This document shows positions 9,011-53,295 of a stretch of 64,000 nucleotides of DNA, one piece after another. Position 1 is the stretch's first letter; the number at the start of each line of letters is the position of its first letter. Made by a program: the position numbers and the translations under genes. This DNA comes from Aphanomyces cochlioides (lineage: Eukaryota > Oomycota > Saprolegniomycetes > Saprolegniales > Verrucalvaceae), in the NCBI GenBank assembly GCA_019828595.1, contig JAHQRK010000028.1:186001-250000 (forward strand), read 5' to 3'. The notes beneath the pieces are model-generated. The model had not been told where the DNA came from, ran no database searches, and saw only the letters and a list, made by a program, of their open reading frames with translations.

Positions 9011-9580
9011 ATGATTGCCCCCACCAACAAACCCTCGCACGTACAATACGACAAGTTGTCATTCCTCATCCTCGATGCTCCCAACGATACGAATTTGCCT
9101 TTGTACGTCAAGGAATTCAAGAAATATCAAGTGACAGATATTGTGCGCGCTTGCGAACCGACGTATTCGCGCACCAATGTGGAAGCCGCTGGGTTTAAAC
9201 TCCACGTATGTCATTCCTGCCACTTACATGTGCCTGATTGCTTGTCGTCATAGGAAATGGAATTTCCTGACGGAGAACCTCCCAGCGCGGAAATTATCAA
9301 CGAATGGTTGGATTTGGTTGAAGCCACTTTCAAGGACAACGCGAAAGAAAATGCTGGCAACAACCCTTCTGACAAAACGATAGCAGTGCATTGCGTAGCT
9401 GGTCTTGGGCGGGCTCCTGTCTTGGTCGCCATTGCCTTGATTGAAAATGGGTTGGATGTGATCAATGCCGTCGAACACATTCGCCAGTCCCGACGTGGTG
9501 CCATCAATTTGCGCCAACTCAAGTACCTCGAAAAATATCAACCGACCCGCAAAGACAAGGGCAAATGTTCCATCATGTAA
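9011..9580 (+). CDS. PTP4A: PRL/PTP4A-type protein tyrosine phosphatase (two exons)
   Basis: Small membrane-anchored dual-specificity phosphatase. Exons 9011-9205 and 9254-9580 (48-base intron) give 173 residues, the usual size of PRL proteins. The P-loop is VHCVAGLGRAPVLVAIAL, with the nucleophile Cys and the PRL-specific Ala in place of Ser/Thr after the loop arginine. An acidic loop is present earlier in the second exon (EMEFPDGEPPSAE). The C-terminus KDKGKCSIM is a basic patch plus CAAX box, predicting prenylation and plasma or endosomal membrane location. The 3' flank (9577-9732) and the following tRNA are duplicated near 46,160-46,402. Confidence 0.93.
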
Positions 9581-9732
9581 ATCTCACGTGGCTTTACTAA
9601 TATTGAATCCATAAGATTGCATGCCTTCCACCTTCCTCCTTTCTTATTTTCTCATCGTCAAGTCGACGACATCTTGACAAAACATTACGACAAAAAATGA
9701 TTCTTTTTCGACCAAGTCAAAATAAAAAATCC

Positions 9733-9812
9733 GTCAGCTGTGAGATTCGAACTCACGCGGGTTGCCCCATTAACTTAGCAGGCTAACGCCTTAACCACTC
9801 GGCCAAGCTGAC
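9733..9812 (-). tRNA. tRNA-Ser(GCT), array 1 anchor
   Basis: On the minus strand the sequence starts GTCAGCTTGGCCGAGTGG and ends with the matching 3' acceptor strand AGCTGAC (7 bp perfect). The anticodon arm reads TTAGC-CTGCTAA-GTTAA, giving anticodon GCT (serine AGY codons), and there is a class II variable arm. Box A is TGGCCGAGTGG and box B lies around GAGTTCGAATC. The gene is intact. The LINE array begins at the base immediately upstream of its 5' end, so all native 5' flank has been displaced. The identical gene recurs at 46323-46402. Confidence 0.95.
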
Positions 9813-9859
9813 AGTCCTCAACTTTCCAGACACTAACCACGACAAACATTCTGACCACG

Positions 9860-12083
9860 ATGACTACCAACACCTCCGACAACAACCCTCCAGCTATCCG
9901 CAACCAAGATGCCCATCTTGGAGAGGACTCTCTCCCACCTCGCGACGACAATCCGAGTGAGGATGACGCGAGCCAGTCTTCCGATGCAGCGCCGTCCTTC
10001 GATGAGCGCCGCCGCCGTGCACCCGATCGCGTATCACCTACCAAAACCGCTGCCAATGTCTGGCAGCATTTCGCCGAACAACGTCATGAAGCCACAAAAG
10101 TGGCCAAGCTAGACGTTGGCTACCATCGACCAACGATGGAGCAATTGGCACCCGTCTTACTCCTTGCAGAGAAACCGTCCGTCTCTGGACGCGAACTCTT
10201 CTTGGCCTTTGAATCCACCCTCCCATCGCCCCCCCCCGTCCAATCGTAACGTACATGCAAATGGACGCAGGGTTCTTTGTGAACCAAATCGATGAAGGCC
10301 GAGCCCTCCGCGCTGTCCTTCACGATCACTCCAACGAAGGTATCGACGATGGGCTGGCTGATATAGTCCAGCTCACGATAGATACGAACAGCCGCCAGCT
10401 TATATGGGGCCTAGCTTCGCTGACCGCTGCTGCTATCCTCGAGAACAAAACCTTCAAAATACCCACGAAAGATGGACACCAATCCTTCACCATGCAGTCC
10501 AAAAATATCTTGGATGGCTTCTTCATTGATATCCTTGGTTTCACCGTCGACCGTGAAGGCAAAGCCCACCTATGGGAAGTCCTCCACGCTGCCGGTGCGA
10601 CGCCCATCTCGGGTGTATACACCCACACCTCCGCTGCCTTTGGCACCACCGGAAGCCGTTATCGCTTGACATTTAAAACCGATGAAATACCTGCCATCTT
10701 CAAAGCCAACGGCCGTCAGATCGACGAAATCATTCTCTTTGGCAAATGTTACCGTGTATATGGCAAAGACTGGTACAACCACCGCAAGCCACCTCAACGT
10801 CTCGATATCGATATCCTCTCACGCGAAAAGAAGATCACGCTTCCAAATACACCAACACAAGGCCGATCCAACAGCAACGATACAGGTAACGGCAAACGAC
10901 AACGTATCGTTCCCGACGAAGAGCTCCCGTGGGAGCTCGTGACGAAAGGAGCAACCTTGAACGACACAGACACACCGCTCCCGTGGACGTCGCCTAACAT
11001 GTACCAAGCCCTTGACGACCGCGTCCTCGTCTCGTCAAAGCAAGTCACAACTGCAAAAGGCTCGGACATGACGATACTCCCCGTCATCTTCGAGCGTCCT
11101 GATGCTCCAACCTCTGTGCCAAACGACACGTACGTCAGTGGCACAAAAGCCCACCGCAATAAAACAGTGCGAGTCAAAGTCTCGCTGAACACAACACTTG
11201 ACGAGCTCGCCGCGCTAGATGCAGCCGTCGCTGAAGCACAGGCGACTTTTGAGGCCACCTGTGCAGCAGCCGCATCCCGTACCAAACTCAACCTCGTGCA
11301 ATATGTCGAAGCCGGCGAAGCCGATTGGATACAACGTGATCTGGAAGACCACCCAATTGTCTTCCGCCGACAGCTCCAAGACATGACTCAAACATCGCCT
11401 CACCTGCTGCTTCCTCTTGTCCAGCTCAGATTGCTCAATCGCTGGATGAGAACTTCTAAAGGATCATCAACCCCTTTTCCCCAAATGTATGCCGACACAT
11501 TCGCCCATCGCTTCTCTCTCGCCACACTGAATAGCGATTTCACAACGGTAGTGACGTCTACACGTCTCGAAGAAACGGCTTGTCCTCATGCGGAGGACAA
11601 CACGCCCACCACCCACGTGGAGGTCGAAATCATCCTTGCCCTTGCCGAGATGTTCCTTGGCTCCACAGCACCCATGATCTACTCAAGTGACGCTCTCCTG
11701 TACGCCTTGACAGCCCAACCGGTATTCTCCATCCCATCCAGATACCAATCTCGCTATCTCTCGTCTGCCACGCTGCGTTCTACCCTCTGGGGTACAACCA
11801 TGCTGGGCGCCACTATTTGGGAATCTCTCAGAGCTACCCTATCAAAGCAGCTGAAATCACCCAGACCAAGGAGCCCAACGACACCACCACGCACTCTGTC
11901 GACGCTTCCTCCACATTCTCACGCTGGCTTGCCGTCATGCACGCCATGGAAATGTCGGAAGAGTCAGAGGCTCTCAACGTCGAGCCAACAAACCAAGTCA
12001 TGTTCGACCCATCCACAGGCAGACTCACCCATGTGGACCTGACTGAACTGTGGACGGACCCCACAGCACTCGAGCAGGACTAA
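9860..12083 (+). pseudogene. E1 ORF1 (LINE ORF1 protein, two frameshifts)
   Basis: Starts at ATG 9860 and in intact form would be about 740 residues. The first frameshift is at a run of nine C near 10229-10237, where sister copies have seven C; reading resumes at 10255. The second is near 11845, after which the proper C-terminus (ending LTELWTDPTALEQD) lies in the frame closing at 12083. I see no CCHC knuckle and recognise no nucleic-acid-binding domain. The conserved core (residues about 130-320; QIDEGRALRAVLHD, then NSRQLIWGLASLTAAAILEN) is shared with all copies in the window. The N-terminus is acidic, serine/proline-rich and disordered-looking, with a conserved SFDERRRR patch. By family logic it should be the RNA-binding chaperone. 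Confidence 0.8.
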
Positions 12084-12090
12084 ACCTGCT

Positions 12091-15000
12091 ATGGGCCCAC
12101 CATCGCTCGGCGGCGCAGCCAGCGTCAGAGTTACCACCTGCAACCTAAACGGCTTCAAAGACCGGGATGACACCCCGGCATCCACACTTGGCAAATATAT
12201 CACGCAATGCGTCTTCTTTCAGGAGACGAGAATCAACAATCAAGACCACTTCCACACCATTCGACACCACATCACCAACCACGTCGGTCACAAGAAATAC
12301 AAGTTCTTTGTGAACGACCACAGAACGTCCATCCACGCCCCATCCGCTCGTAGGAGCAAGGGCGTCGCGACTTACTTCCATGAGTCCATGCCAGGATTCG
12401 AACACCTCAAGCCACTGTGGGACAAAAGAGTGCCCGACAGATATCTTGTTATCAAGACAATGTGGGACGCCACCCCAGTATACTTCCATAACGTTTACGC
12501 CCCAGTCGAGGACGACCAACGAGCCGCCTTCTTTGAGGCGCTTCCCGTCGACTTTGGTGATAACGACTCAGGCGTCCATATCGTTGGTGGGGACTTCAAC
12601 CTCCCCGTCAACTCCATACTCGACGCAACAACTCCTCCTGCAAACCACAATGCCGGTAAGGCGGAATGCATGGCTTGGCTTGCTGCCCTCCGATTCACCG
12701 ACGCTTGGAGACTTATTCACCCCTCGACACGGAAGTTCTCGGGTCCTAGACGACGGAATCGACTTGACTACATCTACGTCGACAATAACTTAGCGATGTA
12801 CTACCTCCAAAGCTCGCTGTATGAAACCAATCAATATCACGGCGACCACTTATGCCACACAACGATCCTCGCGACAACACCATCAGCTCAACAGAAACAA
12901 AAAGCTATCTGGCGTTTACCACGCGAGCTACTTCACGACCCACGAACGGTCTAAGCTATCCAATCCGAAGCCCATATGCTACTCGACGAGCTCCGTTCCG
13001 ACCCAGCGTGCAACGCAGGTGCTAAATGGACGGGGTGGCTTCGGCGAATGAAACGCAAACTTCGTCAAGGCCAATTTAACAGGCTCCGCCATCGCAAGGA
13101 AGCTCTTACCCTTCTCCGACGATGTGTGGCCAAAGCCAAATCTGATCTCAAAGCTGGACTTATCCAGGAAGAAGCTATAAGTGCAGCTCGAGACATCTAT
13201 AAATCAGCCAAAGCCGAACAAAGCCAGGCGAATCTCGATAGCGGCTTTGACCGTCACGCTAACCGCAACGAATCGCCGACAGCTTACTTCCTCCGTAAGC
13301 CGCCGGCTATCAAAATCCCCATCACCTCAGCCTCAATGAACGGCGCCACTACAACAAACCCCGAGGAAGTCGCCGCTATTTTCACAGCACACTGGCGCTC
13401 GATCATGGTCGCATCGACCGACACGCCTCCGCCCGATGATGCGCAGGTGTCTAGTGTCATCAATCACGTTGACAGCGAGCTTAGTCCTGAACAACGCAAT
13501 GATCTGGATCGCCCGATTGATACGTCCGAACTGCGGGACGCCATCAAATCCATGCGTAAAAACAAGTCGCCTGGCCCCGACGGGTGGCCAGCGGTGTTCT
13601 TTCAAACTGCTCCGGAAACATTTGCAGCTATCCTCAGCATCGTCTTCGAATACCAACGCAAGCAACACGGCTGCTTGCTGGCTCACCAGCGCAAGAGTTC
13701 AATCACACTGCTCTACAAAAAGGGCGACCGAACCGACCCAGGCAACTATCGCCCGATCGCGCTTATGCCGGTCGAAGTCAAAATACTGTCTCGAGTCCTC
13801 GCCTACCGTCTGTCGGCGGTAGCCTCAACTCTGATTCATCCCTCACAAGCTGGGTTCGTAAAAGGCCGTAGTATGGCCGACCACATCCACCTCATAGACG
13901 CGCTCCAACATAAAGCCACCAGAGACAACGAGGAATGGTATGCAACGTTCCTCGACTTCGCCAAGGCCTACGATATGGTGCGGTGGTCTTTTCTCTTTGC
14001 TGTGATGGAGAAGATGAACATCGGACCTGACTTCCTCAGCTGGGTTCATCTGCTGTATAAAAAAACCCAAGCTCATCTCCTCATCAATGGCGCACTCGGT
14101 CCTGCGATTAAACCAACACGGGGAGTCAAGCAAGGATGCCCATTGTCGTGCCTACTCTTCGACCTTTACCTGGAGCCACTTGGAGCGATGCTCCGTGCAC
14201 ACCCGGAAGCCGGCATCCAACTGAAGGATGGTAGAACCCTCACTGGAGTGTTTTTTGCCGATGATTCCACACTCCTCTCTAGCTCGCTCGAGTCGGCTGA
14301 ATTTCAACCCGACGTGATTGTGGGTCAATTTTGCGCGGCGTCAGGGGCGGCTCTGAACCGCTCCAAATGCATCACTCTAGCTCTCAACAACAACGAAGAG
14401 CCGACCGGACGACTATCGGCTCCATCAATTATACTGTCTGCGTCGGGACACCCAATTCGATTTCTCGGAGCCTATGTTGGCCATCGCCTTGACCCGCATT
14501 ACCAAGCCCAACGAATACATGACAAATACCTGGCTGCATATGCGCAGTGGCATTGCCGAGCGCGCACGCTGCAGGGTCGTCGAGCCTTGGCTTCCTCCAT
14601 GATCCTTGGCCTGATATGGCATGTGACAGCTGTCACACCCATTCCCGAAAGCTTCATCGACGTGTGGCAGCGACTTCTGTCGAACTTCGTGGTCGGCGGC
14701 AAGACTACAATAGACCCGCAATACCGTCGCCCTATCCGACAGGACTGGCTACATGACAAGACTCTCGGTCTCGGCATCCCCCACATCTCATCGATCATTA
14801 GAGGCCAACGTCTAAAGCTTCTCCAGCGCCTCATTACAGAGTCGCATTCCGCGGCACCAGCGACATGGTCCTCCCTTGTTCTGGAGCAATTTGCACTTTG
14901 CACCCACACAACTTATCGACCATCTCATCCTCTCGACTTCTTGTGGTACTCGCCACAAAAGAGTTCATCTTGGCTTGACCTCCGGGAGCTCCACCCACTG

Positions 15001-16231
15001 TGGATCGATGTATGGACAGCATGGTCCAAAGTACAACTGAAAGACCGCATACAGATCCATCCCGACTTCGACACCACTTTACAAATGCCTCTCTGGCTAA
15101 CCTACTATCCGGAATTCCTCAAAGATGGGAAGGTGACGCCTGCGTCGATCGTCTCCAGATCGACTACAACCCGCATGTGGTGCCAATCAGGAGTCTCAAA
15201 CGGATTCTGGTGCCTGAAGGACTTCCTTGACCAAGCGACCCCCCGTGGCCAATGGCCCGACTTCAAGCAATTCCAAGGGCTTATGTCTTCAGACAACCCC
15301 TCTTGCACAGTATCACTCCAGAACGGTGAAATATGGTTTTCTCTTGTTTACCGTACTCGCGGTTTGTACGACCACCTTACCACTGTCTATCACTCGGTTT
15401 GCGCTCGCTGCAACATGCAGAACACTAACAGCGAACGAGCCAACCACCACTCCCACCACGCCTTCCACGCTATGGTCCGGCAACATAAAAGACCACTAGA
15501 GCTCTGGCCTCGCAAGCTCATCGCAAAGATATCCTACCATGGACCACAACTGGCGGTACGACACCCGACGTATTCTGTTGAACGCCCAAACTTGGCGACA
15601 TCCCGTCGGTATATGGCGAAGGTGCGCAAATCCCTGCGATGGATCACACCCGTTCATGCTGATGTGTGGCTCAAAGTGATTATGCGCATGCTGCCTGTCA
15701 ACGAACGCTATCACTACTGCTCGTCCACTGAGCCTGAGCGAATACTATGCCCACAAGAATGCGGCGAGCAAGAATCCATTGCGCATGCACTCCGCGAGTG
15801 CCCAAAGATTGCACCGTTATGGTTAGCGCATGAATCCCCGTGGCAACAATTCAACGTAAAGTTCGCCTGGACCAGCATCATCAACATGGACAACTTCAAC
15901 CACAAATTCCATTGGACGACCATACAAAGACGCTCTCTTCCATCTCTGGGTTGCGCTGACAGGTGTCACCCTCCACCTGGCATGGACCCAAAGAAACCAC
16001 AAGAAACACCGCCGGAGGGCCGCACCACCACACCACGTCCTCACAAAACAGTCCTTTCTTGTGTGGATGTCTACAGTCCGATGGTGGATGAGACGCCAAG
16101 CTCTTGACGATCCCATCGTGTCCAATACCAAACTCGCGCTGGACCAGTTACTCTCCAAACCACCGTACTCCGAACTTCGACGAAAGCACCCACGGTGCCT
16201 CGTTATCCACCCAACCTTTGATGTGCACTAG
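12091..16231 (+). pseudogene. E1 ORF2 (APE endonuclease-reverse transcriptase, two lesions)
   Basis: ATG at 12091, eight bases after the ORF1 stop and in the +1 frame. N-terminal AP-type endonuclease motifs are TTCNLNGFKD, VFFQETRI, HNVYAPVEDD, GGDFNLP, RNRLDYIYVD and a final GDH. A TAA at 12952-12954 replaces a lysine codon present in sister copies; the frame then continues from 12955. The RT carries NYRPIALMPVEVKILSRVLA, ATFLDFAKAYDMV, GVKQGCPLSC and the catalytic FFADD. A frameshift near 15915 diverts the last 100 residues, whose correct frame ends TFDVH at the TAG 16229-16231. A zinc-finger-like C-x3-C-x7-H-x4-C motif (CPQECGEQESIAHALREC) lies near 15750. The domain set matches L1/Tx1-type LINEs. 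Confidence 0.9.
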
Positions 16232-16365
16232 ACGTCAGGAGCGCAATAGGCGCTCCAAACCACAACCTTCAAGTGCTCCGACACATGGAGCGGATTGAGC
16301 TTAACGGCAATATTAGCTTAGACTAACATCTAACGCGCATCCTTTGACTTCTCGGCCAAGCTGAC

Positions 16366-16929
16366 AGTCTTCAATTTTCCACCCAGCACTCACCAACCAG
16401 CACCCGAAGTCTCACCCACCCCACCTTCGCCTCCACCACCGACGGTGGAGCGGCACCTCCGCCCAAGTCGTCAGCAAGGCCGACGACTCCTCTCCTCCTC
16501 GTCAAGCGACGAGTTCACCTGCCGATACCAGCAAGAGCTGTCGGCTGCACCACCTTGTTCGTTGTGAGAAGGCTCACGAACAAAACTCCTCCTCCACCAC
16601 GACTGCCGCTCCAAGGCCAAGTCGTCAGCAAGGCTGGCGACTCTCCTCCCCTTCCCGACGACGCCAGCAAGGGCTGTCCGTCGTCACTTGCCTTTGGCGC
16701 GTGCCGCCGCGAAGCCGCCGCGACGCAGCCGATTGCACAACTCCATCACAAGTCGCCAGGCCTCTGGCGCACCCATCACCTCGTCTCCTTTAAAAGTCGT
16801 CAGTGTACTAGGCGCCCCCCGACACCACCCCTCTCGTGCTTCGGCACAACAACACGGATTGAGCTTAACGGCAATATTAGCTTAGACTAACATCTAACGC
16901 GCATCCTTTGACTTCTCGGCCAAGCTGAC
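16366..16929 (+). mobile_element. NA1: non-autonomous partner element
   Basis: Body 16366-16914 plus the 15-bp target copy at 16915-16929. It shares its first bases (AGTCTTCAATTTTCC, compare AGTCCTCAACTTTCC of the LINEs) and the last 60 or so bases (from GGATTGAGCTTAACGG through CGCATCCTTTGACTT) with the LINEs. In between it has no homology to ORF1 or ORF2. The interior is a chain of short hairpins: 16467-16487, 16498-16513, 16521-16545, 16555-16583, 16621-16641, 16657-16685 and 16754-16769, then a GTGC-TTCG-GCAC stem at 16836-16847. Four of them carry AGCAAGG or AGCAAGA in the loop. Open frames exist but are arginine/proline-rich readings of the hairpins. A SINE-like parasite of the LINE is the best reading. 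Confidence 0.8.
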
Positions 16930-16976
16930 AGTCCTCAACTTGCCAGATACTGAACACAACATTCACTCTTGCCACG

Positions 16977-19015
16977 GTGACTAACCCTGCTAACAACGCG
17001 AACACCCCACCTGCTCCCGCTCTTCAGGCCGACCAGCCTGCTGAGGATGCGCCTCCTCGTGAGGAGTCTAACTTGACCGACGACGACGACGTTGAACCGC
17101 CGCCGGAAGCTGTTTCCTTCGATGAGCGCCGCCGCCGCGCATCTGATCGCAAATCCTGCTCTCACCCAACAGCGAATGTGTGGCAACACTTTGCCAAGCA
17201 ACGCCAGGCCGCTGCCAAAGCGGCTAAGCTTGACATCGGCTATCATCGACCAACGATGGAACAGCTTGCACCCGTCCTTCTTCTCGCGGAAGACCCTTCC
17301 GCGACTGGACGTCAACTCTTTGAGGCGTTCGAAGCCACCCTCCCATCACCCCCCCGTCCGGTCGTCACGTACATGCAAATGGATGTCGGCCACCTTGCCA
17401 ACCAGATCGATGAAGGCAAGGCCATGCGTGCTGTCCTTCACGATCACCACAATGAAGGCATCGATGAGGGACTGACGGATATCGTCCAACTCACCGTGGA
17501 CATTAACAGTCGCCAACTCGTTTGGGGACTGGCCTCTCTGACTGCTGCCGCCATACTCGAGAACAAAGTCTTCAAAATCCCCACAAGAGACGGATTCCAA
17601 TCATTCACGCCAGCGCTGTTTAAATCGAATGGCCGATTGATCGACGAGATCATTTTTCTCGGCAAATGCTATCGAGTCTTCGGACGAGACTGGTTTAACC
17701 ACCGCAAGCAAACCCAACGAGCTGACCTGGATATCTTGGCCCGTGAAAAGAAATCCCCTTGCCTGGATCCCAGATGTCTCCAAGCAATACCAGTGCACGC
17801 ACCACTCAAAACGGTAAACGACAACGAAGTGACCAGGATTCCGAATCCCCGTGGGAACTGGTCACCAAAGGGGCCACCCTTGGCTCATCTGCCACACCAC
17901 TCCCTTGGACTTCTCCAAACATGTACCAAGCGCTGGACGATCGAGTTGTTGTCTCCACAAAACTCGTGGCAAACAAGACTGGATCCGACATCATGGTCTT
18001 GCCAGCGATCCTAGAGCGCCCTGACGCTCCACTCTCTGTCCCACAAGACGCGTATGTCAGTGGCACCAAAGTCCACCGCAACAAAGCTGTCCGCGTGAAG
18101 ACGTCGTTAAACACGACGCTCGACGAGTTGGCTGCCTTAGATGCTGCTGTCGCAGAAGCTCAGGCAGCTTTCGAGTCCAACTGCTCGACTGCTGCGTCCA
18201 AAACCAAACTAAATCTGGCTCAATACATCGAAGCCGGTGAAGCTGACTGGATCCAGCAGGATTTAGAAGACCACCCCATCGTCTTTCGCCGTCAACTCAA
18301 CGAGATGGCCCACTTCTCGCCCCAATTACTGCAGCCACTGGTCCAACTCCGACTCCTCAACAAGTGGCTACGGGCTTCCCAGGGTGCAGCAACTCCTTTT
18401 CCCAAGCTTTACACCGATACATTTGGTCACCGCTTCTCCCTGACCAACCTCACCGCCGACTTCGAGACTTTAGTCGCATCATCTCAGCTTGAACAATCTG
18501 TATGCTCCATGCACGAGGATACCAGTCAGATCACGCCAGTTGAAGTCGAAACGATCCTTGCCCTCACCGAGATGATACTTGGATCCACAGCGCCACTGAT
18601 CTACTCGAGCGATACTGCTATATACTCACTCACGGCTCAACCTGTCTTCTCCATCCCCTCACGCTCGCGCTCCAGATACCTTGCGTCAGCTACCGTACGA
18701 CACATCCTATGGGGATCGCCGACGCTAGGAACCACTCTGTGGGATGCGCTGAAAGCTATTATAACTGCAGCACACGCAGCTGCTAAATCACCAACGACGC
18801 ATGACGAACAAAGCTCCAACCATCCCTTAGACGTAGTCAGGCAGACCCTCAACCGATGGGCTGTCATCATGAACACTATGGAGATAGCTGAAGAGCTCGA
18901 AGCTCTGAACGTCGAGTTTGAGAATCAAGTCATGCTTGAAAACTCCACGCGCCGTCTCGTCCAGGGCGACCTCACAGACCTCAGGACTGACTTCACAATA
19001 TCTGCGAGTGGTTAA
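16977..19015 (+). pseudogene. E2 ORF1 (start lost, deletion, frameshift)
   Basis: At the position where E1 and E5 have ATG, this copy has GTG (16977), a lesion shared with E4. Compared with E4, 198 bp (66 codons) are missing at about 17609. A one-base loss in an A run near 17750 (KK followed by S instead of I-P-L-P) shifts the frame; the true C-terminal half is in the frame of 17759-19015, ending DFTISASG. The same A-run lesion is present in E4. The conserved ORF1 core is recognisable before and after the deletion. Without frame changes no complete ORF1 protein can be made. Confidence 0.85.
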
Positions 19016-22000
19016 TCCTGTCTCAACTTCCACCCAACTTGGAGGTGCGGCCAGCGTCTCATTCACCACCTGCAACCTCAACGGATTTAAAGATCACGAC
19101 GACACCCCCGCATTAGCTCTCGGCAAGCACCTCCACCAATGTGTGTTCTTCCAAGAAACCAAAATCAACAATCAAGACCATTTCCGCACCATCCACCGAC
19201 ACCTGACAAATCACGTTGGCTACAAGAAGTACCAGCTATTCATGAATGATCAGAGAACGTCCGCCCACAGTTCCACGACGCGTCGGAACAAGGGCGTAGC
19301 GACCTTCTTTCACGAGTCCATGCCAGGATTCCACAATCTCAAACCGCTCTACGACAAACGAGTGCCCAATCGGTACCTAGTCGTTCGAACGATGTGGACC
19401 TCAACACCCGTATTCTTTCACAACGTCTACGCACCCGTCGAAGATGACCAACGCGCTGCCTTCTTTGCATCTCTCCCAACGGACTTCGATGACGATGACC
19501 AGGGCATCCACATCATCGGTGGAGACTTCAATCTACCACTAAACACAGCCCTCGATGTTACCACGCCGTCTGCCAACTACAATAACGGAAAAGCCGAATA
19601 TCTCGCCTGGTTGGCAGCACTACGCGTCACTGACGCATATCGGCTTAAGTACCCCTCGACACGAGCGTTTTCCAGTCCCGGCCGCAGAAATCGACTGGAT
19701 TACATCTTTGTTGACTGGGGACTAGCGACCCACCACCTGCACAACTCGGTCTACGAAGCTAACCGATACCGTGGGGACCATTTAACACACACGACAACCC
19801 TAGCAACGGTGATACCAACCACACCTTCAAAAAAGCAACCCTCCACCTGGTGGCTCCCACGGGAGCTTCTCCTCAATCCACATACAGTAAAAGCTATCAA
19901 AAGCGAGGCCCAAAGCCTCCTCGACGAGCTCCTCGAGGACACAGAGTGCAATGCGGGGGCTAAGTGGCTTGGCTGGCTTCGTCGAATGAAGCGTAAGATG
20001 AAGCAAGGCCATTTCAATCGTCAACGCCACCGTCAGAAGCTCCTGACAAAGCTTCGTCGATGCGTGGTCAAAGCGAAATCGGACCTGCGCGCTGGTCTCG
20101 TCGAGCCAGCGGCTGTCCAAACGGCGCGCGATAGATACACTGATGCAAAAGCTGAACACCGCCAATTATCTCTAGACCGTGGATTTGACCGTCATGCGAC
20201 TCTCAACGAATCAGCTACGGCGCATTTCCTGCGTAAACCACCTGCGCTAAAGGTACCTATCACCTCAGCGATGAAAAACGGCGTGATCACCACAAATCCG
20301 GATGAAGTTGCTAGCATCTTCACAACACACTGGCGATCCATAATGGTGAAGCCCGCAACAACACCCTCGCCCGATCCTGCTCTACAGGAGACTGTCATCA
20401 ACCACGTCACAGCTTCATTGTCGACGGATCAGCGCAGAGCCCTTGACAGACCAATTATTGCCTCTGAACTGTGCTCAGCAATCAAGACAATGCGCAGAAA
20501 CAAGTCGCCTGGCCTGGACGGCTGGCCGGCGGCCTTCTTCCAAGTAGCTCCCGAGACCTTCGCGGCCATTCTCTGCATAGTTTTCGAGTACCAACGTAAG
20601 CACCATGGCTGTCTCCTACCACATCAGCGCAAAAGTTCAATCACCTTGCTATACAAGAAAGGAGAGCGCACTGATCCCGGAAACTATCGACCGATTGCTC
20701 TCATGCCAGTGGAAGTCAAAATACTTTCGCGTGTGTTAGCTTATCGACTGTCGGCAGTAGCGGACACGCTTATTCACCCGTCCCAAGCAGGTTTTGTGAA
20801 GGGCCGCAATATAACCGACCACATTCATTTGATTCAAGCCCTCCAACACAAGGCCACCCGCAATAATGAGGAATGGTACGCTACATTCCTCGACTTTGCG
20901 AAGGCCTATGACATGGTCCGCTGGCCATTCCTCTTTGCAGTGATGTCAAAAATGAACATCGGTCCTGAGTTTTTGGGCTGGGTCCGCTTGCTGTACAGGA
21001 ACCCAGAAGTCCACTTGTTGCTCAATGGCGCACCTGGTCCCACCATTCGACCCAACCGCGGAGTCAAACAAGGCTGTCCTCTGTCCTGTCTTCTTTTCGA
21101 CCTGTATCTAGAGCCACTTGGCGCCATGCTCCGCGCTCGCCCCGAAGCCGGCATCCAAATCGATGACGACACTTGCCTTACTAGCGTGTTCTTCGCTGAC
21201 GACTCCACCATACTATCGGGATCGCTTGAGTCGGCTGAATACCAAGTGGACGAGATCGTCGGCAAGTTTTGCGCGGTCTCTGGAGCTGCGTTAAACCGAT
21301 CTAAGTGCATCACACTAGCCCTCAACAATAATGAAGAGCCGACTGGACGAGCCTCGGCACCGTCCATCACACTAGCAGCGTCAGGCCAGCCGATTCGCTT
21401 CCTCGTCGCCTACATTGGCCACCGTCTGCCACCCAACTACCATGTGCAGCAAATAAACGACAAATACCTCGCAGCCTTTGCCCAATGGCACAGCCGCGCG
21501 AGAACAATTCAAGGCCGTCGAACACTAGCCTCGTCACTGATCCTTGGCCTTGTTTGGCACGTTACTGCCGTAACTCCAATCCCAGCGGGCATGATCGAGA
21601 CTTGGCAACGGATGTTAAACAACTACATCGCTGGAGGCAAGACTGCCATCGACCCTAAGTATCGCCTCCCCATCAACGGTAGTTGGATGTATGATAAAGT
21701 CCTGGGGCTTGGAATCCCCCACATAGCTTCAATCATCCGTGGGCAGCGACTCAGGCTCCTCCAAAGCCTTCTGGCTGGGCCGACCATTGCGCCTCGACCG
21801 CTGTGGTTTTCACTCGTGCTTGAACAATTCGCCAATTGCACACGAACAGTCTATCGCCCTTCCCAGCCATTTGACTTCCTGTGGTACAGGCCACAGATTA
21901 GCTCAGCGTGGCTGGACCTTCCCGAGCTCCACCCAATGTGGCTGGACGTCTGGCAAGCCTGGTCTAAAGTCCCAATGAAGCATCGCCTTCCGATACGTCC

Positions 22001-23168
22001 AGATTTGCCCATGACCCTGCACATGCCTATCTGGCTCACCACGTATCACGACTTCTTACTCCTCGGCAAGACCACTGCTGCATCGATTATATCCCGATCT
22101 ACAGAAGCCCGCTTGTGGTGTCAAGCGGGAGCACGAAACGGTCTCACATGCCTCAGTGATTTCTTGAACAAAACCACTCCACAAGGCTACTGGCCCAGCT
22201 TCCAACAATTTCAGGGACTCATGTCCTCAGGCAACCCGGCATGCACAGTCTCCTTTCAAAATGGCCGAATTTGGTTTCATCCCGTGCACCGCACACGCAG
22301 CGTGTACGACCACCTGACGCAAGTCTACCTTTCTACCTGTACCCGCTTCCAAGTCCGCCATGATGCCCCTCAGATCATTCCATCGTCTCCACCTCTTCCC
22401 TTTCGAGCGCTTGTGCGCGACCAACAACAGCCCTACCCAATGTGGCCGAGGAAACTCATCGCCAAAATAGCATACCATGGTGCCACCCCAACGGATCCAC
22501 ACCCGACTTACAACTCGAGTCGCCCTGACCATGATACGGCTAGGAAATACATGTCCCTTGTGCGCAAATCCCTACGATGGGTTACCCCAGTTCACGCCGA
22601 TGTATGGTTCCGAGCTACAATGAACATGCTCCCAGTCAACGAACGCTATAAATACCTCCTATCAACTGACCCCGAGCGTGTGCTGTGCCCCCACGAATGT
22701 GATAGTCGAGAAACACTTGCCCATGCTCTGCATACTTGTCCGTCGATTGCTCCACTGTGGACTGCCCACGAAGGGCCGTGGCAACAGTTTGGCGTATCAT
22801 TCTCTTGGACCAACATCGCTAATCTTGACCGCTTCAAGGTCAACGCTCTGGGAAGACTTACCAAGGACACACTCTTTCAACTCTGGGTCATGCTCGTAGG
22901 AGTTTCACTCCATACGGCTTGGACCCAGCGCAACAATCGGAAACACCGCCGCCGAGCAGCGCCTTCACCGTACGTCCTCGTCGAGCAATCCTTCCTTCTG
23001 TGGATGGGCACCGTTCGCTGGTGGATGCGACGACAGGATGCCGACGACCCGGTCATTGATCAAACTCGAACAGTCCTCGAGAAACTCTTCTCCCAGACTC
23101 CATATTCCGAACTTCGAAGCAAATATCCAAAATGTTTGGCACTCGAAACTACGTTCGATGTGCATTAG
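18918..23168 (+). CDS. E2 ORF2: endonuclease-reverse transcriptase, uninterrupted
   Basis: Open for 1,416 codons from the first in-frame ATG at 18918, which overlaps the end of ORF1 by 98 bases in the +1 frame. The part homologous to E1 ORF2 starts at about 19041 (LGGAASVSFTTCNLNG). The endonuclease covers roughly residues 45-290: CNLNG at about 19071, GGDFNLP at about 19518, RNRLDYIFVD, GDHLTH. The RT covers roughly residues 530-830: TDPGNYRPIALMP, ATFLDFAKAYDMV at about 20883, GVKQGCPLSC, and FFADD at residues 758-762 (21189-21203). A zinc-finger-like CPHECDSRETLAHALHTC begins at residue 1257. No RNase H domain is seen. All catalytic residues I can check are present, so the protein could be active if translated. 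How ribosomes reach it is unclear, because no ATG lies just after the ORF1 stop in this copy. Confidence 0.92.
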   Translation: MRIKSCLKTPRAVSSRATSQTSGLTSQYLRVVNPVSTSTQLGGAASVSFTTCNLNGFKDHDDTPALALGKHLHQCVFFQETKINNQDHFRTIHRHLTNHVGYKKYQLFMNDQRTSAHSSTTRRNKGVATFFHESMPGFHNLKPLYDKRVPNRYLVVRTMWTSTPVFFHNVYAPVEDDQRAAFFASLPTDFDDDDQGIHIIGGDFNLPLNTALDVTTPSANYNNGKAEYLAWLAALRVTDAYRLKYPSTRAFSSPGRRNRLDYIFVDWGLATHHLHNSVYEANRYRGDHLTHTTTLATVIPTTPSKKQPSTWWLPRELLLNPHTVKAIKSEAQSLLDELLEDTECNAGAKWLGWLRRMKRKMKQGHFNRQRHRQKLLTKLRRCVVKAKSDLRAGLVEPAAVQTARDRYTDAKAEHRQLSLDRGFDRHATLNESATAHFLRKPPALKVPITSAMKNGVITTNPDEVASIFTTHWRSIMVKPATTPSPDPALQETVINHVTASLSTDQRRALDRPIIASELCSAIKTMRRNKSPGLDGWPAAFFQVAPETFAAILCIVFEYQRKHHGCLLPHQRKSSITLLYKKGERTDPGNYRPIALMPVEVKILSRVLAYRLSAVADTLIHPSQAGFVKGRNITDHIHLIQALQHKATRNNEEWYATFLDFAKAYDMVRWPFLFAVMSKMNIGPEFLGWVRLLYRNPEVHLLLNGAPGPTIRPNRGVKQGCPLSCLLFDLYLEPLGAMLRARPEAGIQIDDDTCLTSVFFADDSTILSGSLESAEYQVDEIVGKFCAVSGAALNRSKCITLALNNNEEPTGRASAPSITLAASGQPIRFLVAYIGHRLPPNYHVQQINDKYLAAFAQWHSRARTIQGRRTLASSLILGLVWHVTAVTPIPAGMIETWQRMLNNYIAGGKTAIDPKYRLPINGSWMYDKVLGLGIPHIASIIRGQRLRLLQSLLAGPTIAPRPLWFSLVLEQFANCTRTVYRPSQPFDFLWYRPQISSAWLDLPELHPMWLDVWQAWSKVPMKHRLPIRPDLPMTLHMPIWLTTYHDFLLLGKTTAASIISRSTEARLWCQAGARNGLTCLSDFLNKTTPQGYWPSFQQFQGLMSSGNPACTVSFQNGRIWFHPVHRTRSVYDHLTQVYLSTCTRFQVRHDAPQIIPSSPPLPFRALVRDQQQPYPMWPRKLIAKIAYHGATPTDPHPTYNSSRPDHDTARKYMSLVRKSLRWVTPVHADVWFRATMNMLPVNERYKYLLSTDPERVLCPHECDSRETLAHALHTCPSIAPLWTAHEGPWQQFGVSFSWTNIANLDRFKVNALGRLTKDTLFQLWVMLVGVSLHTAWTQRNNRKHRRRAAPSPYVLVEQSFLLWMGTVRWWMRRQDADDPVIDQTRTVLEKLFSQTPYSELRSKYPKCLALETTFDVH

Positions 23169-23314
23169 CCACCCTTCCCCAATCACTGGCTCCCAAGCTC
23201 CAGTGATGAAACCGCCGCCAGCGCTCTGGCACAAGGACAGGATTGAGCTTAACGGCAATATTAGCATTAGATTAACCTCTAACGCGCATCCTTTGACTTC
23301 TCGGCCAAGCTGAC

Positions 23315-24043
23315 AGTCTTCAATTTTCCACCCAGCACTCACCAACCAGCACCCGAAGTCTCACCCACCCCACCTTCGCCTCCACCACCGACGGTGGAGC
23401 GGCACCTCCGCCCAAGTCGTCAGCAAGGCCGACGACTCCTCTCCTCCTCGTCAAGCGACGAGTTCACCTGCCGATACCAGCAAGAGCTGTCGGCTGCACC
23501 ACCTTGTTCGTTGAGAAGGCTCACGAACAAAACTCCTCCTCCACCACGACTGCCGCTCCAAGGCGAACGGCGTCAAGCCCGAGTCGTCAGCAAGGCTGGC
23601 GACTCTCCTCCCCTTCCCGTACGCCAGCAAGGGCTGTCCGTCGTCTGCACCATCTTTGTTCGGTGAGAAGGCTCACGAACAACACTCCTCCTCCACCACG
23701 ACTGCCGCTCCAAGGCGAACGGCGTCAAGCCCGAGTCGTCAGCAAGGCTGGCGACTCTCCTCCCCTTCCCGACGACGCCAGCAAGGGCTGTCCGTCGTCA
23801 CATGCCTTTGGCACGTGCCGCCGCGAAGCCGCCGCGACGCAGCCGATTGCACATCTCCATCACAAGTCGCCAGGCCTCTGGCGCACCCATCACCTCGTCT
23901 CCTTTAAAAGTCATCAGTGTACTAGGCGCCCCCCGACACTACCCCTCTCGTGCTTCGGCACAACAACACGGATTGAGCTTAACGGCAATATTAGCTTAGA
24001 CTAACATCTAACGCGCATCCTTTGACTTCTCGGTCAAGCTGAC
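23315..24043 (+). mobile_element. NA2: expanded non-autonomous element
   Basis: Body 23315-24028, target copy 24029-24043 with one mismatch (CTCGGTCAAGCTGAC). Same ends and hairpin chain as NA1, but the stretch from the GAGAAGGCTCACGAAC hairpin through the AGCAAGG hairpins is present twice (about 23513-23650 and 23665-23795). It also carries an extra GAACGGCGTCAAGCC insert in each unit that NA1 and NA3 lack. It is about 165 bp longer than its relatives. Confidence 0.75.
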
Positions 24044-24139
24044 TTCTGTCACCCCTCCTAATACGTGATAAAAGGGATGCCAGCGCTACACGGCAAAATT
24101 ACCTCTAGCGCATCCTTTGACTTTTCCGCCAAGCGTACT
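24044..24139 (+). mobile_element. Decayed LINE/NA 3' tail with degenerate target copy
   Basis: The segment keeps GATGCCAGCGCTACACGG, then CTAGCGCATCCTTTGACTT, recognisable against the tails of E2 and E5, and ends in a mutated target copy (TTTCCGCCAAGCGTAC). Only the last 80 or so bases survive. It is the most diverged member and sits at the tRNA-distal end of array 1. Confidence 0.6.
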
Positions 24140-24310
24140 CAATATTTCCGGATAAAATTATATAATTGATTAAATTTAGCGTGTCTGGTTACTGCTAATT
24201 GTGATAATAATTCCCTACACGTGAGCATTGTTGAATAATAGTAATTGTTGTATTGTGTTGTGTTTGGAATTTGCTTGACGGGAGGAAAGCACGATTTTAT
24301 TAGTTAAAAT

Positions 24311-24774: not shown

Positions 24775-25611
24775 ATACTGTGTTCGACACGACGATCCCT
24801 ACCATAAAATACAACACGGGTAAAGCGGAATGCCTCGCCTGGCTAGCAGCACTCCGTGTCACAGACGCTTGGCGTTTAATTTACCCCACACAACAAGCTA
24901 TGTCGGGGGCGCGGAACAAAAACCGCCTTGATTACATCTACATCGACCGCGAACTTGTAGCGCACCATCTATAAAGCACTAAATACGAGACCAACCGCTT
25001 TCACGGAGACCACCTTTCCCACACAGTCACACTGGTGGCAACTCCTGCGCAGCCACATGACAAAGCCGGCAAACGAATATGGAGACTGCCAAGAGAGCTT
25101 CTCCTCGACCATCGCACAATCAAAGCCATCGAACAGGAAGCCCAGATGCTCCTTGATGAACTCACCGAACAGCCTGACTGCAACGCGGGAGCCAAATGGT
25201 GCGATATAAGCGCAAAATGCGCCAAGGACAATTCAACAAACTTCGACACAGGCAGGAGGCTCTCAATCACTTTCGCCGTCGCATAGCCAAAGCCAAAGGA
25301 GACGTTAAAGCAGGACTGGCGGACGAATTGGTCATCGAGATAGCGCGGGAAACATACACCAACGCAAAGAACGAAGCTCGGCAAGCCACGCTCGACAGTG
25401 GCTTCGACAGACATGCCAATCTCAGCGAATCACCCACGGCGTACTTCCTTCGTAAGCCGCCGGCGATTAAAGTTCCCATTACGTCGGCGGTAATATGTGG
25501 CTAAGGCTTTCACCGACCACTGGAGTTCCATTATGGTTGAACATTCCCCCCAGCTCACTTCCGACTTAGAGGCTAGAGAACGAGTCCTAGACCGTCTACA
25601 AGTTACGTTGT
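24775..25611 (+). pseudogene. LINE fossil: ORF2 endonuclease-to-linker fragment
   Basis: Starts inside the endonuclease (YNTGKAECLAWLAALRVTDA, then NRLDYIYIDREL), with a stop at 24972-24974, continues through WRLPRELLLDHRTIKAI and RKMRQGQFNKLRHRQEALN, and ends after FTDHWSSIMVE near 25545-25610. It has several frameshifts and stops. It is closest in wording to E5. The RT domain itself is absent because the sequence jumps at about 25611 into an ORF1 fragment. Confidence 0.8.
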
Positions 25612-26885
25612 CGACAATATCCCAAACCTTCACCATGAAAGCCAAAAATGCTATAGATGGATATTTCGTGGACATCCTTGGCTTCGACACCACTCGTGAC
25701 GTCAAGGTCCACAATTGGGAAGTTCTTCACGGGTCGGCGCTGCACCAATCTCCGGTCTATACACGAACACTTCCGAATCTTTGGGTACTACGCGCAGCCG
25801 ATACCGAATCACCTTCACGTTTGCCGACCCTCCACCGATGTTCAAAGCTAATAGACGAAGGATTAGCGAAATAATTTTATGGACAATTGCTATCATTTCT
25901 TCGGGAGCGACTGGTACAACCACCGCAAACAAGCCCAGTGAATCGACCTCGACATCCCAATTCGGGGGTAAAGCCAGCGCAAACGACCAAAACGCGCGTC
26001 TATATCAGGATGGCAAATGTCAGCGCCCCGGACCAGAGCCTAACTTCCCATGGTAGCTCGTCCGTAAGGGAGTCAAGCTCGGTGCAACGTCTGACCCACT
26101 TTCATGGGTATCCCACAACTGTATCAAGCGCTTGACGAGTATGTCACTGTCTTCAGCAAGCAAATGACCAATGCCAATTGGACTGATGTCAAGGTCCTTT
26201 TCGTCATTCTTAAGCGTCCCGACGCTTCAACATCAACAAGATCAATCCCAAACGATGCATTCGTCTGTGAACCAAATCACACCGCAACAAAACAACACGA
26301 GCCAAAAGTCCGCTCAACACAACCCTCGACGAGCTTGCTGCCCTGGATGTAGCCGTAGCGGAATCTCAAGCTTCCTTCGGTGTCTCCTGCACGACAGCTG
26401 CTTCAAACATTAAACTAAATTTGGCCAAGTACATCCAAGAAGGTGAAGCCGACTGGATACAACGGGATGTAGTGGATGACCCCATCCTCTTCCGTCGGTA
26501 GCTGTGAACTCGCGGTGTCCTCCCTACACCTCCTGCTACTCCTAGATCAGCTACGCCTACTCAATAGGTGGCTCCGAGTAAGGTGCATCGCTCCCTTTCC
26601 ACAAACTCTACGCCGAAACTTTTGTGCGCCAACCGACATTAGCCAACTTCCAAGCAGACTCGGCTTTACGACAACCAGTGCATTCCAACTTTAACCGTCT
26701 AGCTCCCTGCTGCACGAGGGCTCAACCGACTTCACAATGATAGAAATTGAATGCATTGTCGCCACTGTAGAAATGATCCTAAGCTCAGTGGCGCCAATGA
26801 TCTATGCCATTGACACCGCAATATACTCTCTCACAGCTCAGCCTGTGTTTGTTATCCCCTCACGATTTCAACAACATATTTACAA
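25612..26885 (+). pseudogene. LINE fossil: ORF1 fragment
   Basis: Begins at QTFTMKAKNAIDGYFVDILG (compare E5 ORF1 near 53930) and can be followed through CTTAAS, KYIQEGEADWIQRD and finally SLTAQPVFVIPSRFQ near 26850-26870, with many stops and shifts. It lies downstream of an ORF2 fragment, the reverse of the order within one element. The two fossils are therefore pieces of different copies or a deletion-inversion product. Confidence 0.8.
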
Positions 26886-31879: not shown

Positions 31880-32704
31880 TCGCCTTTCAACAAGGCACCA
31901 TCTGGTTCAATTAAGTTCCACGGACACGCGCTGCATGAGCATCTGGCCGCAGTATATCACTCTGTACAAACTCGCTGTCAAGCTAACTGGGTCATCAGCA
32001 ACCTAGAACGGGCACCACCGACAAATGTCTTTCAAGCACTAGTTCGTAAGAGAGCGCTACAGTTTGAGTACTGGCCCCGCAAGCCGACATCAAACATACC
32101 CTACCACGACCCTATTCCTACCAACCCAAACCTTACATATAGTGCCCAGTGCCAAATTCGCCATATACATGGCTCTTGTACGGTAATCCCTACAATGGAT
32201 CACGAATGTCCACGCAGACGTATGGATTAGAGTCACCCTCAAAATGCTCCTGGTAAATGACTGCTTCAAGTACTACACACCCAACAACCCCGCCCGTCGA
32301 CTCTCTACGAGGCTAATGAAACTATAGCCCACATACTCCACGAGTACTCCGCCATCTCCCCAATATGGAAACCCACGCGCCTCCTTGGCAACAGTATGAA
32401 CAATATCGCATTTCTTTATTATGGCACAACAAGAGCAACCTCGATGCGTTATCTGTAAATGCCACTGACAAATCCGTCAAAGAGCTCCCTTTTCTTTTCT
32501 GGGCCATTCTCACAGGCGTGAAAACCCACCTGGCATGGACATAGTGAAAACACAAAACCATCGCCAACGCACAGCACCACCACAGCATGTCCTTGTCGAT
32601 AAATCCTATTTTGCCTGGATGTCGACAATACGCTGGTGGATGCACCGCCAAGAGTACGACTCGAAAACTCTTCACCCACGAACTTCAAAGTAAATATCAG
32701 AGAA
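31880..32704 (+). pseudogene. LINE fossil: ORF2 C-terminal part
   Basis: Matches the last 270 codons of E5 ORF2 with many lesions: the phrase ending in a TIWFN-type motif, then YWPRKP, a repeat of the zinc-finger region and WMSTIRWWMHRQ near 32620. At about 32700 the match breaks within the sequence equivalent to ELRSKYPKC. The remaining tail resumes at about 33646. Confidence 0.75.
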
Positions 32705-33645
32705 TGTCGGATAAAATATGGCGAAATATCGGAATCGCCGGAGAAATTGTCGACCCTTTTCGGATAATATTTTTGTGATAGGTATTCAAATCTCAAGCTA
32801 TAGAGATATTACACATGAAATTGTCGAAAAGATAATCCGTGCTATTTGATTGGTAGTTAATATAAATTCTACATGTAGTCGATCATCACAAAGGGATTTC
32901 AAGCTTCTCAATTTGAAGCTGAAAATTACAAACCCCATGCAGCTCTTACGATGACTCTTAACGCCTCGTAGTTGATTGTTATCAATATGAATATTTAAAT
33001 AATTTAAATTAATTGAAACAAGCTTTCAAGTACCTACACTTGCGTAGGTTGGCAATACTGTCCAAATATCTCCGAAACGTTTGGATCACAAATAAGCGAG
33101 TGGAGTTTATCTGAATACATTGTATGTTGGATTGACATGCATTAGTACCTCTTCATTGCTTTGAAATGTTCGTTATCCTCTCTAACAAGGAGGCATTTTA
33201 CTGTTTTTGAATCTCAACCTTGCTGATCAAACTTGCAATACGTTTGCAGACAAACTTAAGTATTTTAGCTTGCAATTGAATCATAATATTTTATCGTGAA
33301 TCGAGCGCAACATCTCAAAGCTCTCTTTTGCGCTAGAATTGTAGGACAACATGCTAGTCAACACACACACTTTAAGTCTCCCTCTAATTCAATATCGCTT
33401 CAATTTACTACTCTGACGGGATGTAAAGCACGTCGGTAAACACTATTTGAATATAGTGGCTATGATCCATGTCGCTGCCTGGTATTTGGCACACATGAAG
33501 CACATTTGAACTCCATGAATAACTTGAATCTCAGAAATGTAGAGTGCAATCTGTATAAGATCACGACATTCAAATTTCTTTATAATATTAACCAATCACA
33601 TCACCGATGTATAATTTCCGAAACCTCGTCCGACAATTTTCACAA
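32705..33645. mobile_element. Unclassified about 940-bp insertion in the LINE fossil
   Basis: It interrupts the LINE fossil exactly where the two halves would join. The edges read TGTCGGA on the left and TCCGACA on the right, a perfect 7-bp terminal inverted repeat, with weaker inverted similarity further in. It is AT-rich with no ORF. The flanking LINE bases are too decayed to prove a target duplication. Confidence 0.45.
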
Positions 33646-33802
33646 ATGCTTGGCACTGGAAACTATGTTCGACGTGCAGTAGTCACCCCTCCACCACCAT
33701 TGTCTTCTAAGCCTAGGTAAAAGCTCTGCGAGCGCTCTGGCACAAGGGCAGGATTGAGCTTCGGCAAGATTAGAATAAGATTAAACTCTAACGCGTATCC
33801 AT
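33646..33802 (+). pseudogene. LINE fossil: end of ORF2 and 3' tail
   Basis: ATGCTTGGCACTGG with the following TATGTTCGACGTGCAGTAG corresponds to the ORF2 C-terminus (CLALETTFDVH). It continues with GCGCTCTGGCACAAGG, GGATTGAGCTTCGGC and CTCTAACGCGTATCC. It stops short of the target copy, where a minus-strand transposase fragment begins. Confidence 0.85.
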
Positions 33803-34140
33803 TGTAACCATGTGCAACATCGAGATCTCTTGCTCTTGGCGGCGAAGATCTTTCAAGCACGTCAACAGCTCGTTTCCAAACGGTATTATGGACTTGCCGC
33901 CTTGGTCTCCAAGGGTCTTGCGCTTGCCATTCCGCCTTGATTCAAAAATTGAAGAAGCCCGCTTCTTCCAGTCGGACCATGTGCTTGACTTCAAACGATA
34001 CTGCTCGCAAAATTCTTTGTCGCTGCTTCGCTTTAACTTGAAATAAAGTTCGAGGATTGCCTTCCGCTGGGAATTGCTATAGCTTCTTTGATCCTGCTCG
34101 GCAATGCCATGCCGGAGTCCTTCGCATTGACGGATTTGAA
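33803..34140 (-). pseudogene. pogo/CENPB-type HTH transposase N-terminal fragment
   Basis: The minus-strand frame reads SYSNSQRKAILELYFKLKRS, EFCEQYRLKSSTWSDWKKRA and a GKSIIPFGNELLTCLKDLRR segment. This is the double helix-turn-helix layout of pogo/CENPB-type transposases common in oomycetes. The catalytic DDE part is missing, cut off at the LINE tail junction. Confidence 0.6.
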
Positions 34141-46142: not shown

Positions 46143-46166
46143 GTCAGCTGTGAGATTCGAACTCAT
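46143..46166 (-). pseudogene. 3' end fragment of tRNA-Ser
   Basis: 24 bases identical to the 3' end of the tRNA-Ser gene (GTCAGCTGTGAGATTCGAA on the plus strand), then an abrupt switch to a copy of the PTP4A stop-codon region. Marks the left edge of the duplicated segment. Confidence 0.85.
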
Positions 46167-46402: not shown

Positions 46403-46449
46403 AGTCCTCAACTTGCCAGATACTGAACACAACATTCACTCTTGCCACG

Positions 46450-53248: not shown

Positions 53249-53295
53249 AGTCCTCCTCTTGCCAGACACTGAACACACCATTCACTCCTGCTACG

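Follow-up and report, generated by a model that had tools for sequence, protein, structure and literature searches.

LINE retrotransposons of Aphanomyces cochlioides that probably insert through the A box of tRNA genes and leave the gene intact

A stretch of 64,000 nucleotides (nt) from the oomycete Aphanomyces cochlioides (GenBank assembly GCA_019828595.1, 76.2 Mb in 94 contigs, the contigs being labelled Cn below; contig JAHQRK010000028.1, C21:186001-250000), hereafter the window, carries two head-to-tail stacks of long interspersed nuclear elements (LINEs) and short partner elements, each built against an intact tRNA-Ser(GCT) gene. We distinguish three LINE families of this serine type (A, B and C), their partners (NA) and a second lineage (D and F). 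We hold it highly probable that A, B, C and the partners insert by target-primed reverse transcription (TPRT) at one site in tRNA-Ser genes, and that D does likewise in genes of other isotypes. The product reads tRNA, element head, element tail and a copy of tRNA nt 1-15; because the tRNA side retains the complete gene, the target site is regenerated.

The first-pass annotation of the window had described four consecutive elements running from AGTCYTCAA to TTTGACTT, each followed by a 15-mer matching the start of the tRNA, and the coordinates bear this out. Elements start at 9813, 16366, 16930 and 23315 and end at 16350, 16914, 23299 and 24028, and the exact 15-mer CTCGGCCAAGCTGAC, which is the reverse complement of tRNA nt 1-15, lies at 9798, 16351, 16915 and 23300; behind the fourth element the copy (CTCGGTCAAGCTGAC) has one mismatch. 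Nucleotides 1-15 of the anchor gene itself occupy 9798-9812, and LINE A starts at the very next base, so that the first element does touch the tRNA 5' end as had been noted. The window contains eight exact copies of the 15-mer, where chance would give a random 15-mer approximately 1e-4 times in 64 kb with both strands counted. Absent from the first-pass annotation were the mismatch after the fourth element, the second stack, the presence of two families among the elements that it labelled E, and the decayed relics further out. The A and B copies of stack 1 belong to different families (67% identical), and A, B and C are mutually 66-67% identical. The weak tail at 24123 runs into a decayed 15-mer and that at 33804 into unrelated bases; both fall under the threshold of the genome-wide tail search described below.

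The duplication can be read directly by comparing empty with filled sites. A tandem array of tRNA-Ser(AGA) and tRNA-Ser(CGA) genes lies at C2:555-645 kb, in which empty AGA units read aaccg-CTCGGCCAAGCTGTC-tttcatg and five filled units read aaccg-CTCGGCCAAGCTGTC-[agtcctcaac...tttgactt]-CTCGGCCAAGCTGTC-tttcatg. Filled and empty AGA units therefore differ by the element plus 15 bp, exactly tRNA nt 1-15, and the duplication has the T of the AGA gene where the GCT-anchored stacks have A. Because it bears the variant base of its own host gene, the 15-mer is a true target-site duplication. Family D begins at nt 1 in units of tRNA-Tyr (C13) and tRNA-Ala(CGC) (C22), and filled and empty units there differ by the element plus exactly 14 bp. 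This empty-site comparison had been set beforehand as the check on duplication length, and it returned 15 bp for Ser(AGA) and 14 bp for Tyr and Ala(CGC). The proposals of a site-specific LINE with a duplication of about 15 bp, of a tRNA gene that stays intact while its flank is replaced by retroelement, and of a site recreated by insertion (the product carrying nt 1-15 again) were thus upheld. The five filled AGA units are mutually 99.85-99.94% identical and so represent one insertion spread with the array. One more insertion, found at C2:552961 and with a tail that differs slightly, retains only CTCGGCC of the duplication, followed by a flank like that of native AGA units.

Searches of the whole assembly were consistent with this picture. 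Among the 33 scored ORF2 (open reading frame 2) matches, taken from 1696 first-look candidates, the close matches (69-100% identity) were without exception part of stacks or insertions anchored on a tRNA, on C21, C1 and C2 (12/12), the remaining 21 forming a separate family at 48%; a relic at C1:978187 stands outside the 33. All 13 head matches were preceded by the target, the query itself having contained the 15 target bases, and a fourteenth head, of family A at C1:726641, outside the 13, follows a target with one mismatch. The tail search gave 31 matches genome-wide, of which nine are scars within tRNA-Ser(CGA) genes. Among the other 22, 18 continue into the 15-mer, differing from the tRNA version at no more than one base, one into a partly deleted copy and three into other DNA. 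Genes for tRNA were called by ARAGORN, and the first anchor was also scored by Rfam. There are five near-exact tRNA-Ser(GCT) genes, three of them occupied (C21 twice, C1). The first-pass annotation named tRNA-Ser(GCT) as the target; Ser(AGA) is used as well, and related elements occupy Tyr, Phe, Ala and Asn genes.

The stack on C1 consists, from the tRNA outward, of a 5'-truncated B (1765 bp), B, A, B and lastly a C-like head, the far end of which was not found up to 748 kb. The truncated B directly abuts the tRNA, so the tRNA neighbour lacks a head there. The A copy of the window is 99.0% identical to that at C1:726641-733188. Within C1:720060-739770, two B copies (99.85% identical) flank A and each is followed by the same altered 15-mer, CTCGGCCAACCTGAC, which suggests gene conversion or a local duplication within the stack.

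In the nine scarred tRNA-Ser(CGA) units (C2:554965-610421), the final 14 bases of the LINE tail stand in for part of the D arm, with TCTAACGC shared at the join; 17 CGA units of that orientation in the array are intact. The scars would fit either a very short TPRT product sealed through microhomology or a LINE-tRNA deletion.

Family D, with an ORF2 frame of 1396 amino acids (aa) and 47% protein identity to B, extends the pattern to other isotypes. The genome holds 222 exact D tails, and CTA comes next in 187 of them (1 in 64 expected). In a sample of 20 junctions, picked other than at random from 40 listed, all 20 continue TGAGCTA and fall into seven 14-mer classes: TGAGCTACATCCCC (six), TGAGCTATAGAGGA (four), TGAGCTATCGCGGC (three), TGAGCTATGACCGG (three), TGAGCTACAACCCC (two) and two singletons. 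Five of these classes are the reverse complement of tRNA nt 1-14, from Ala(AGC), Asn, Phe, Tyr and Ala(CGC) genes; the Ala anticodon AGC was read by eye, as ARAGORN made no call in those short pieces. Tandem tRNA arrays (Tyr, Phe, Ala) on C13, C15, C22 and C24, with units of approximately 1184, 1124, 646 and 1204 bp, are interrupted by D and F, and those of C13, C15 and C24 extend near contig ends. From the 100 tRNA 5' ends listed of 189, 44 are Tyr-type on C13, where 14 of the 43 intervals exceed 1300 bp (base unit ~1184), and 45 are Phe-type on C15, where 20 of the 44 intervals do so (base unit ~1124); ARAGORN called one Tyr-type gene and two Phe-type genes. On C13 and C15 together, 10 of 34 exact D tails lie 7322-7332 bp from the next tRNA, which is the full element length, and the others lie nearer the tRNA or are stacked at steps of ~7340 bp.

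Family F has at least 151 exact tails, counted only where CTA comes next, on the same contigs as D, and very probably uses the same mode as D, with TRGCTCA in the A box and a 14-bp duplication. One F copy (L034, 1-3300) has an apparent extra frame of 465 aa between ORF2 and tail, with no Pfam match. A further locus, L057, was considered as a D copy with another head and rejected, the bases past its duplication being the native upstream flank of tRNA-Tyr. On balance we lean towards a single A-box-addressed LINE lineage, in which D and probably F would be generalists at TRGCTCA and A, B and C serine specialists, with the gene self-repaired, the insertion nearly harmless and the arrays serving as renewable homes.

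As to mechanism, we suggest a first nick by the endonuclease within the A box, on the tRNA-sense strand and immediately past nt 15 (...TTGGCCGAG^); the nick is placed there because the duplication ends there, and in D it would fall past A14 or slightly earlier. The freed 3' end would then prime reverse transcription of the element RNA, with its shared 3' tail and no poly(A), the opposite strand would be cut 15 bp away, precisely at tRNA nt 1, and second-strand synthesis would complete the insertion. The first cut would lie in conserved A-box sequence and the second at a fixed distance regardless of the acceptor-stem sequence. A cut at the tRNA 5' end, as first proposed, would accordingly hold for the second strand only, the first nick being more probably inside the A box after nt 14/15. 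The product leaves every base of the gene in place and alters nothing but its upstream flank; repeated insertion would give head-to-tail stacks of different families. In D, the TGAG that ends the element could pair with the freed CTCA, a kind of annealing for which SART1 offers a precedent (PMC7265360), and a doubled TTGCAGTGAG in one D copy would fit slipped priming. Signs of TPRT are the 5'-truncated 1765-bp copy against the C1 tRNA and the two partner copies off target, which have both ends and 16-bp duplications, one of them (CTAGGCCAACTGCCAC) resembling the target. Growth of the stacks at the tRNA face, rather than at the distal copies, may also fit, though not decisively. The outer layers are more decayed, the duplication after NA2 having one mismatch and the next layer several, and several stops interrupt C, the outermost element of stack 2; contrary to this, A is innermost in stack 1 and also has broken frames.

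Several observations weigh against this reading or narrow it. The nick can be placed only to within a few bases, since target-like bases may belong to the RNA 3' end itself, as with TGAG in D and with an extra CT that precedes the duplication in the C12 partner. At C12:2812242, C89:2092551 and C5:1987220 a Ser-type 3' end adjoins other DNA, and the second off-target 16-mer, CCCAACCTCCGCCTGT, is hardly like the target. The copies at C1:978187 and C12:2788404 do stand at the 15-mer, with no tRNA gene called within the 15.5 and 13 kb fetched. Set beside the expectation that nearly all tails would abut tRNA genes or each other, 18 of the 22 non-scar tails stand at the 15-mer, two of these 18 without a called tRNA gene, and three lie at other DNA. 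The tRNA-Ser(GCT) genes on C14 and C23 have no such element within their 10-kb loci, and therefore not all targets are filled. As some copies are array amplifications, independent Ser-type insertions number ~17-18 and not 22. Within the window, the frames of A and C are broken and neither B copy has an unbroken ORF1. Finally, 35 of the 222 D tails lack CTA directly after them, including one on C36 in which TTGCAGTGAG is repeated before CTA.

Among other explanations, indirect targeting is a possible but clearly less probable one, in which the element would follow RNA polymerase III (Pol III) factors on the tRNA gene and the fixed position would mark a factor footprint. TFIIIC binds the A box, where the first nick probably falls, and the targets are Pol III genes; in addition, ORF1 of TRE5-A interacts with TFIIIB subunits (PMC5911963). 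Set against this, insertion is base-exact here as opposed to the 40-54 bp spread given for TRE5 in the same paper, one off-target partner sits at target-like sequence where no tRNA gene was called, and the preferred A-box sequence differs by family (GGCCGAG vs TRGCTCA). The second off-target copy, at sequence hardly resembling the target, speaks for neither direct nor factor-led targeting.

We think it very improbable that unequal crossing-over, or tandem duplication of a single tRNA-plus-element unit, was the chief way in which the stacks grew. Some observations favour such events locally: the five B copies on C2, each 898-899 bp from a scarred neighbour, spread with their array, the two B copies on C1 share their altered 15-mer, and in the D array of C13 the same truncated pair recurs, with tail-to-tRNA distances of 6693/4380 and 6695/4382. 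The stacks in the window, in contrast, string together unlike elements (A, NA, B, NA; B, NA, C), every one of them followed by a duplication of its own, and for such mixed stacks of distinct families this origin is refuted. In the D arrays, moreover, distances from tail to next tRNA vary (80, 439, 529, 2798, 4380, 6139 and 7322-7332 bp among them), which is what separate truncations would give. That the 15-mer is a terminus shared by the elements, next to tRNA by coincidence or capture, might be entertained from the window alone, where it follows every full-length element (once with a mismatch), but is hardly credible and was rejected, as it has T for A in tRNA-Ser(AGA), two off-target copies have their own flank duplicated, and D has different 14-mers in different tRNA arrays.

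ORF2 of B (1416 aa) matches PF03372 (Exo_endo_phos) and PF00078 (RVT_1) in Pfam; A has both, in two separate frames, and in D RVT_1 is clear and Exo_endo_phos scores 15.1 bits, under the cut-off of 24.5. A C-terminal CCHC knuckle (C1257-x3-C1261-x7-H1269-x4-C1274) is invariant in 14 aligned proteins. Pfam matched no RNase H family in A, B or D, and the ORF1 frames examined gave no Pfam match. The best solved relative of B ORF2 is human L1 ORF2p (180 bits; R2, 83 bits). Judged by sequence, A, B and C are L1-like non-LTR (non-long-terminal-repeat) retrotransposons with an apurinic/apyrimidinic endonuclease (APE) and without poly(A), and they show the single sequence position, target duplication and 5' truncations of site-specific members of that class. 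A LINE ended by poly(A) or a microsatellite was considered and rejected, neither occurring at the 3' junctions inspected. Database relatives split between B (P0001-P0007, 54-63%) and D (P0008-P0012, 55-92%), with P0013 about equidistant, so both lineages exist outside this genome. Three A. astaci proteins match the LINE ORF2 at 46-49% and are nearer D (54-59%). No relatives of B were found in the viral contigs scanned.

The partners NA1 and NA2 share their last 60 bp with A identically, and their heads begin AGTCTTC vs AGTCCTC in A; they would be mobilized in trans by the LINEs. A tail in common with a LINE is a trait of short interspersed nuclear elements; the Pol III-derived head (from tRNA, 7SL or 5S RNA) of such elements was considered for NA1 and NA2 and rejected, as neither had an Rfam match (scan of 9600-24300, E up to 1). 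A known structured RNA within the elements was likewise rejected, as Rfam passes the tRNA alone and two other matches lie far below their gathering scores. Tails were folded with RNAfold against 100 single-base shuffles each: the energies of 13 Ser-type tails were unremarkable (z -1.7 to +1.6), and F and D gave z -2.3 and -2.5. In a layout chosen by eye (outer stem, GC-rich hairpin, linker, second hairpin), the eight tails compared share GAGC..GGC, a linker near AATATTAG and the outer stem, which pairs GGAT/ATCC in the Ser type and GGGA/TCCC in D and F, and the second hairpin differs in sequence. That hairpin beats shuffles clearly in D (0/300), F (2/300) and A_C1 (14/300) and not in the other five (94-146/300). 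The partner copy NA_C89 lacks the first hairpin.

Table 1. Features of the two stacks and associated relics in the window
Feature	Position	Strand	Basis
Intact tRNA-Ser(GCT), anchor of stack 1	9731-9812	-	ARAGORN 9731-9813; Rfam RF00005 61.2 bits, 9732-9812
LINE A, full length, broken frames	9813-16350	+	Head, tail, ORFs
15-bp target-site duplication	16351-16365	+	Exact CTCGGCCAAGCTGAC
Partner NA1, 549 bp, non-autonomous, LINE-like head and tail	16366-16914	+	Sequence comparison
15-bp target-site duplication	16915-16929	+	Exact CTCGGCCAAGCTGAC
LINE B	16930-23299	+	ORF2 open 18918-23168, APE endonuclease and reverse transcriptase (RT)
15-bp target-site duplication	23300-23314	+	Exact CTCGGCCAAGCTGAC
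Partner NA2, 714 bp, internal duplication	23315-24028	+	Sequence comparison
Duplication with one mismatch, CTCGGTCAAGCTGAC	24029-24043	+	Junction sequence
Decayed LINE tail and decayed duplication TTCCGCCAAGCGTAC, older stack layer	24044-24138	+	Junction/tail sequence
Relic pieces of C-like LINE, two, rearranged	24810-26871	+	68-75% to family C
Relic 3' parts of C-like LINE, shared tail at end, no 15-mer after	31883-33804	+	70-81%
Intact tRNA-Ser(GCT), anchor of stack 2	46321-46402	-	ARAGORN 46321-46403
LINE B copy, both ORFs broken	46403-52670	+	99.4% to stack-1 B
15-bp target-site duplication	52671-52685	+	Exact 15-mer
Partner NA3	52686-53233	+	99.8% to NA1
15-bp target-site duplication	53234-53248	+	Exact 15-mer
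LINE C, frames broken by several stops	53249-59720	+	Sequence comparison
Outermost 15-bp duplication, other sequence beyond	59721-59735	+	Exact 15-mer

In LINE A the frames comprise part of ORF1 (10255-12042), an endonuclease ORF (12091-12954) and an RT ORF (12976-16107), and the stack-1 B copy lacks ~198 bp of ORF1 at 17608 compared with other B copies. The two anchor tRNA genes are identical across the 91 bp compared, and the 294 bp around them (9573-9866 vs 46163-46456) are 93.5% identical. Elsewhere in the window, an ORF of 662 aa (34281-36269, minus strand) has no Pfam match; its best named match is from A. stellatus (50%), and its nine organism-named matches come from Aphanomyces (four), chytrids (four) and an aphelid (one), with metagenome relatives in addition. 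It is possibly another mobile family. Direct repeats of 160 and 247 bp (97-99% identity) lie at 38516-39355.

Many site-specific LINEs break the gene copy that they enter or stay at a distance from it. The cut geometry here appears to spare the gene and yet keep the site open, making an essential gene a renewable target. In tandem tRNA arrays, with empty units beside filled ones, duplication, truncation, layering order and turnover are directly measurable, and the families form a natural comparison of endonuclease shifts among tRNA isotypes. As a natural system of precise insertion, the conserved A box would be of interest together with the tail that lacks poly(A).

Dictyostelid TRE5, NLTR-A and NLTR-B are likewise LINEs with APE and RT that lie 5' of tRNA genes, and TRE5 shares the orientation opposite to tRNA transcription (PMC5911963, PMC5006619). 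Upstream of the mature tRNA sequence, TRE5 lies at 40-54 bp and NLTR-A at 2-6 bp (PMC5911963, PMC5006619); TRE3 lies 40-150 bp downstream of tRNA genes, and dictyostelid LINEs overall 2-64 bp upstream or 40-150 bp downstream. The placement found here is a different one, at nt 1 with nt 1-15 duplicated. Unlike TRE5-A, which ends in oligo(A), the present elements have no poly(A), their head abuts nt 1 and tRNA nt 1-14/15 are duplicated. The zebrafish element Dewa belongs to the Tx1 group. It is a target-specific non-LTR retrotransposon of the tRNA-Leu spacer (PMC3706591). Dada resembles our elements in inserting in the tRNA A box, at nt 8-13, with isotype-specific families (PMC8869645, PMC3706591), but has a DDE transposase and duplicates nt 8-13 inside the gene, in contrast with APE/RT, a duplication reaching nt 1 and a complete gene here. 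Oomycete Utopia elements similarly comprise several site-specific LINE families in few small-RNA genes (PMC4640811), but with a restriction-like endonuclease, a U2 snRNA target and occupied U2 genes that lack the first 38 bp, where ours have APE and a tRNA target. SART1 of the silkworm is site-specific too, and target-like bases of its 3' untranslated region may anneal to the nick, but its target is the telomeric repeat and it needs a poly(A) tail for accurate insertion (PMC7265360). In the open-access literature searched we found no LINE inside tRNA genes with a 14-15 bp duplication; the tRNA-targeting LINEs found in print lie beside genes or in a spacer, and precise A-box insertion was found only for Dada. 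From the sequences compared, we rate the mode of insertion as that of other site-specific LINEs, and what appears new is the insertion site together with the gene-sparing outcome.

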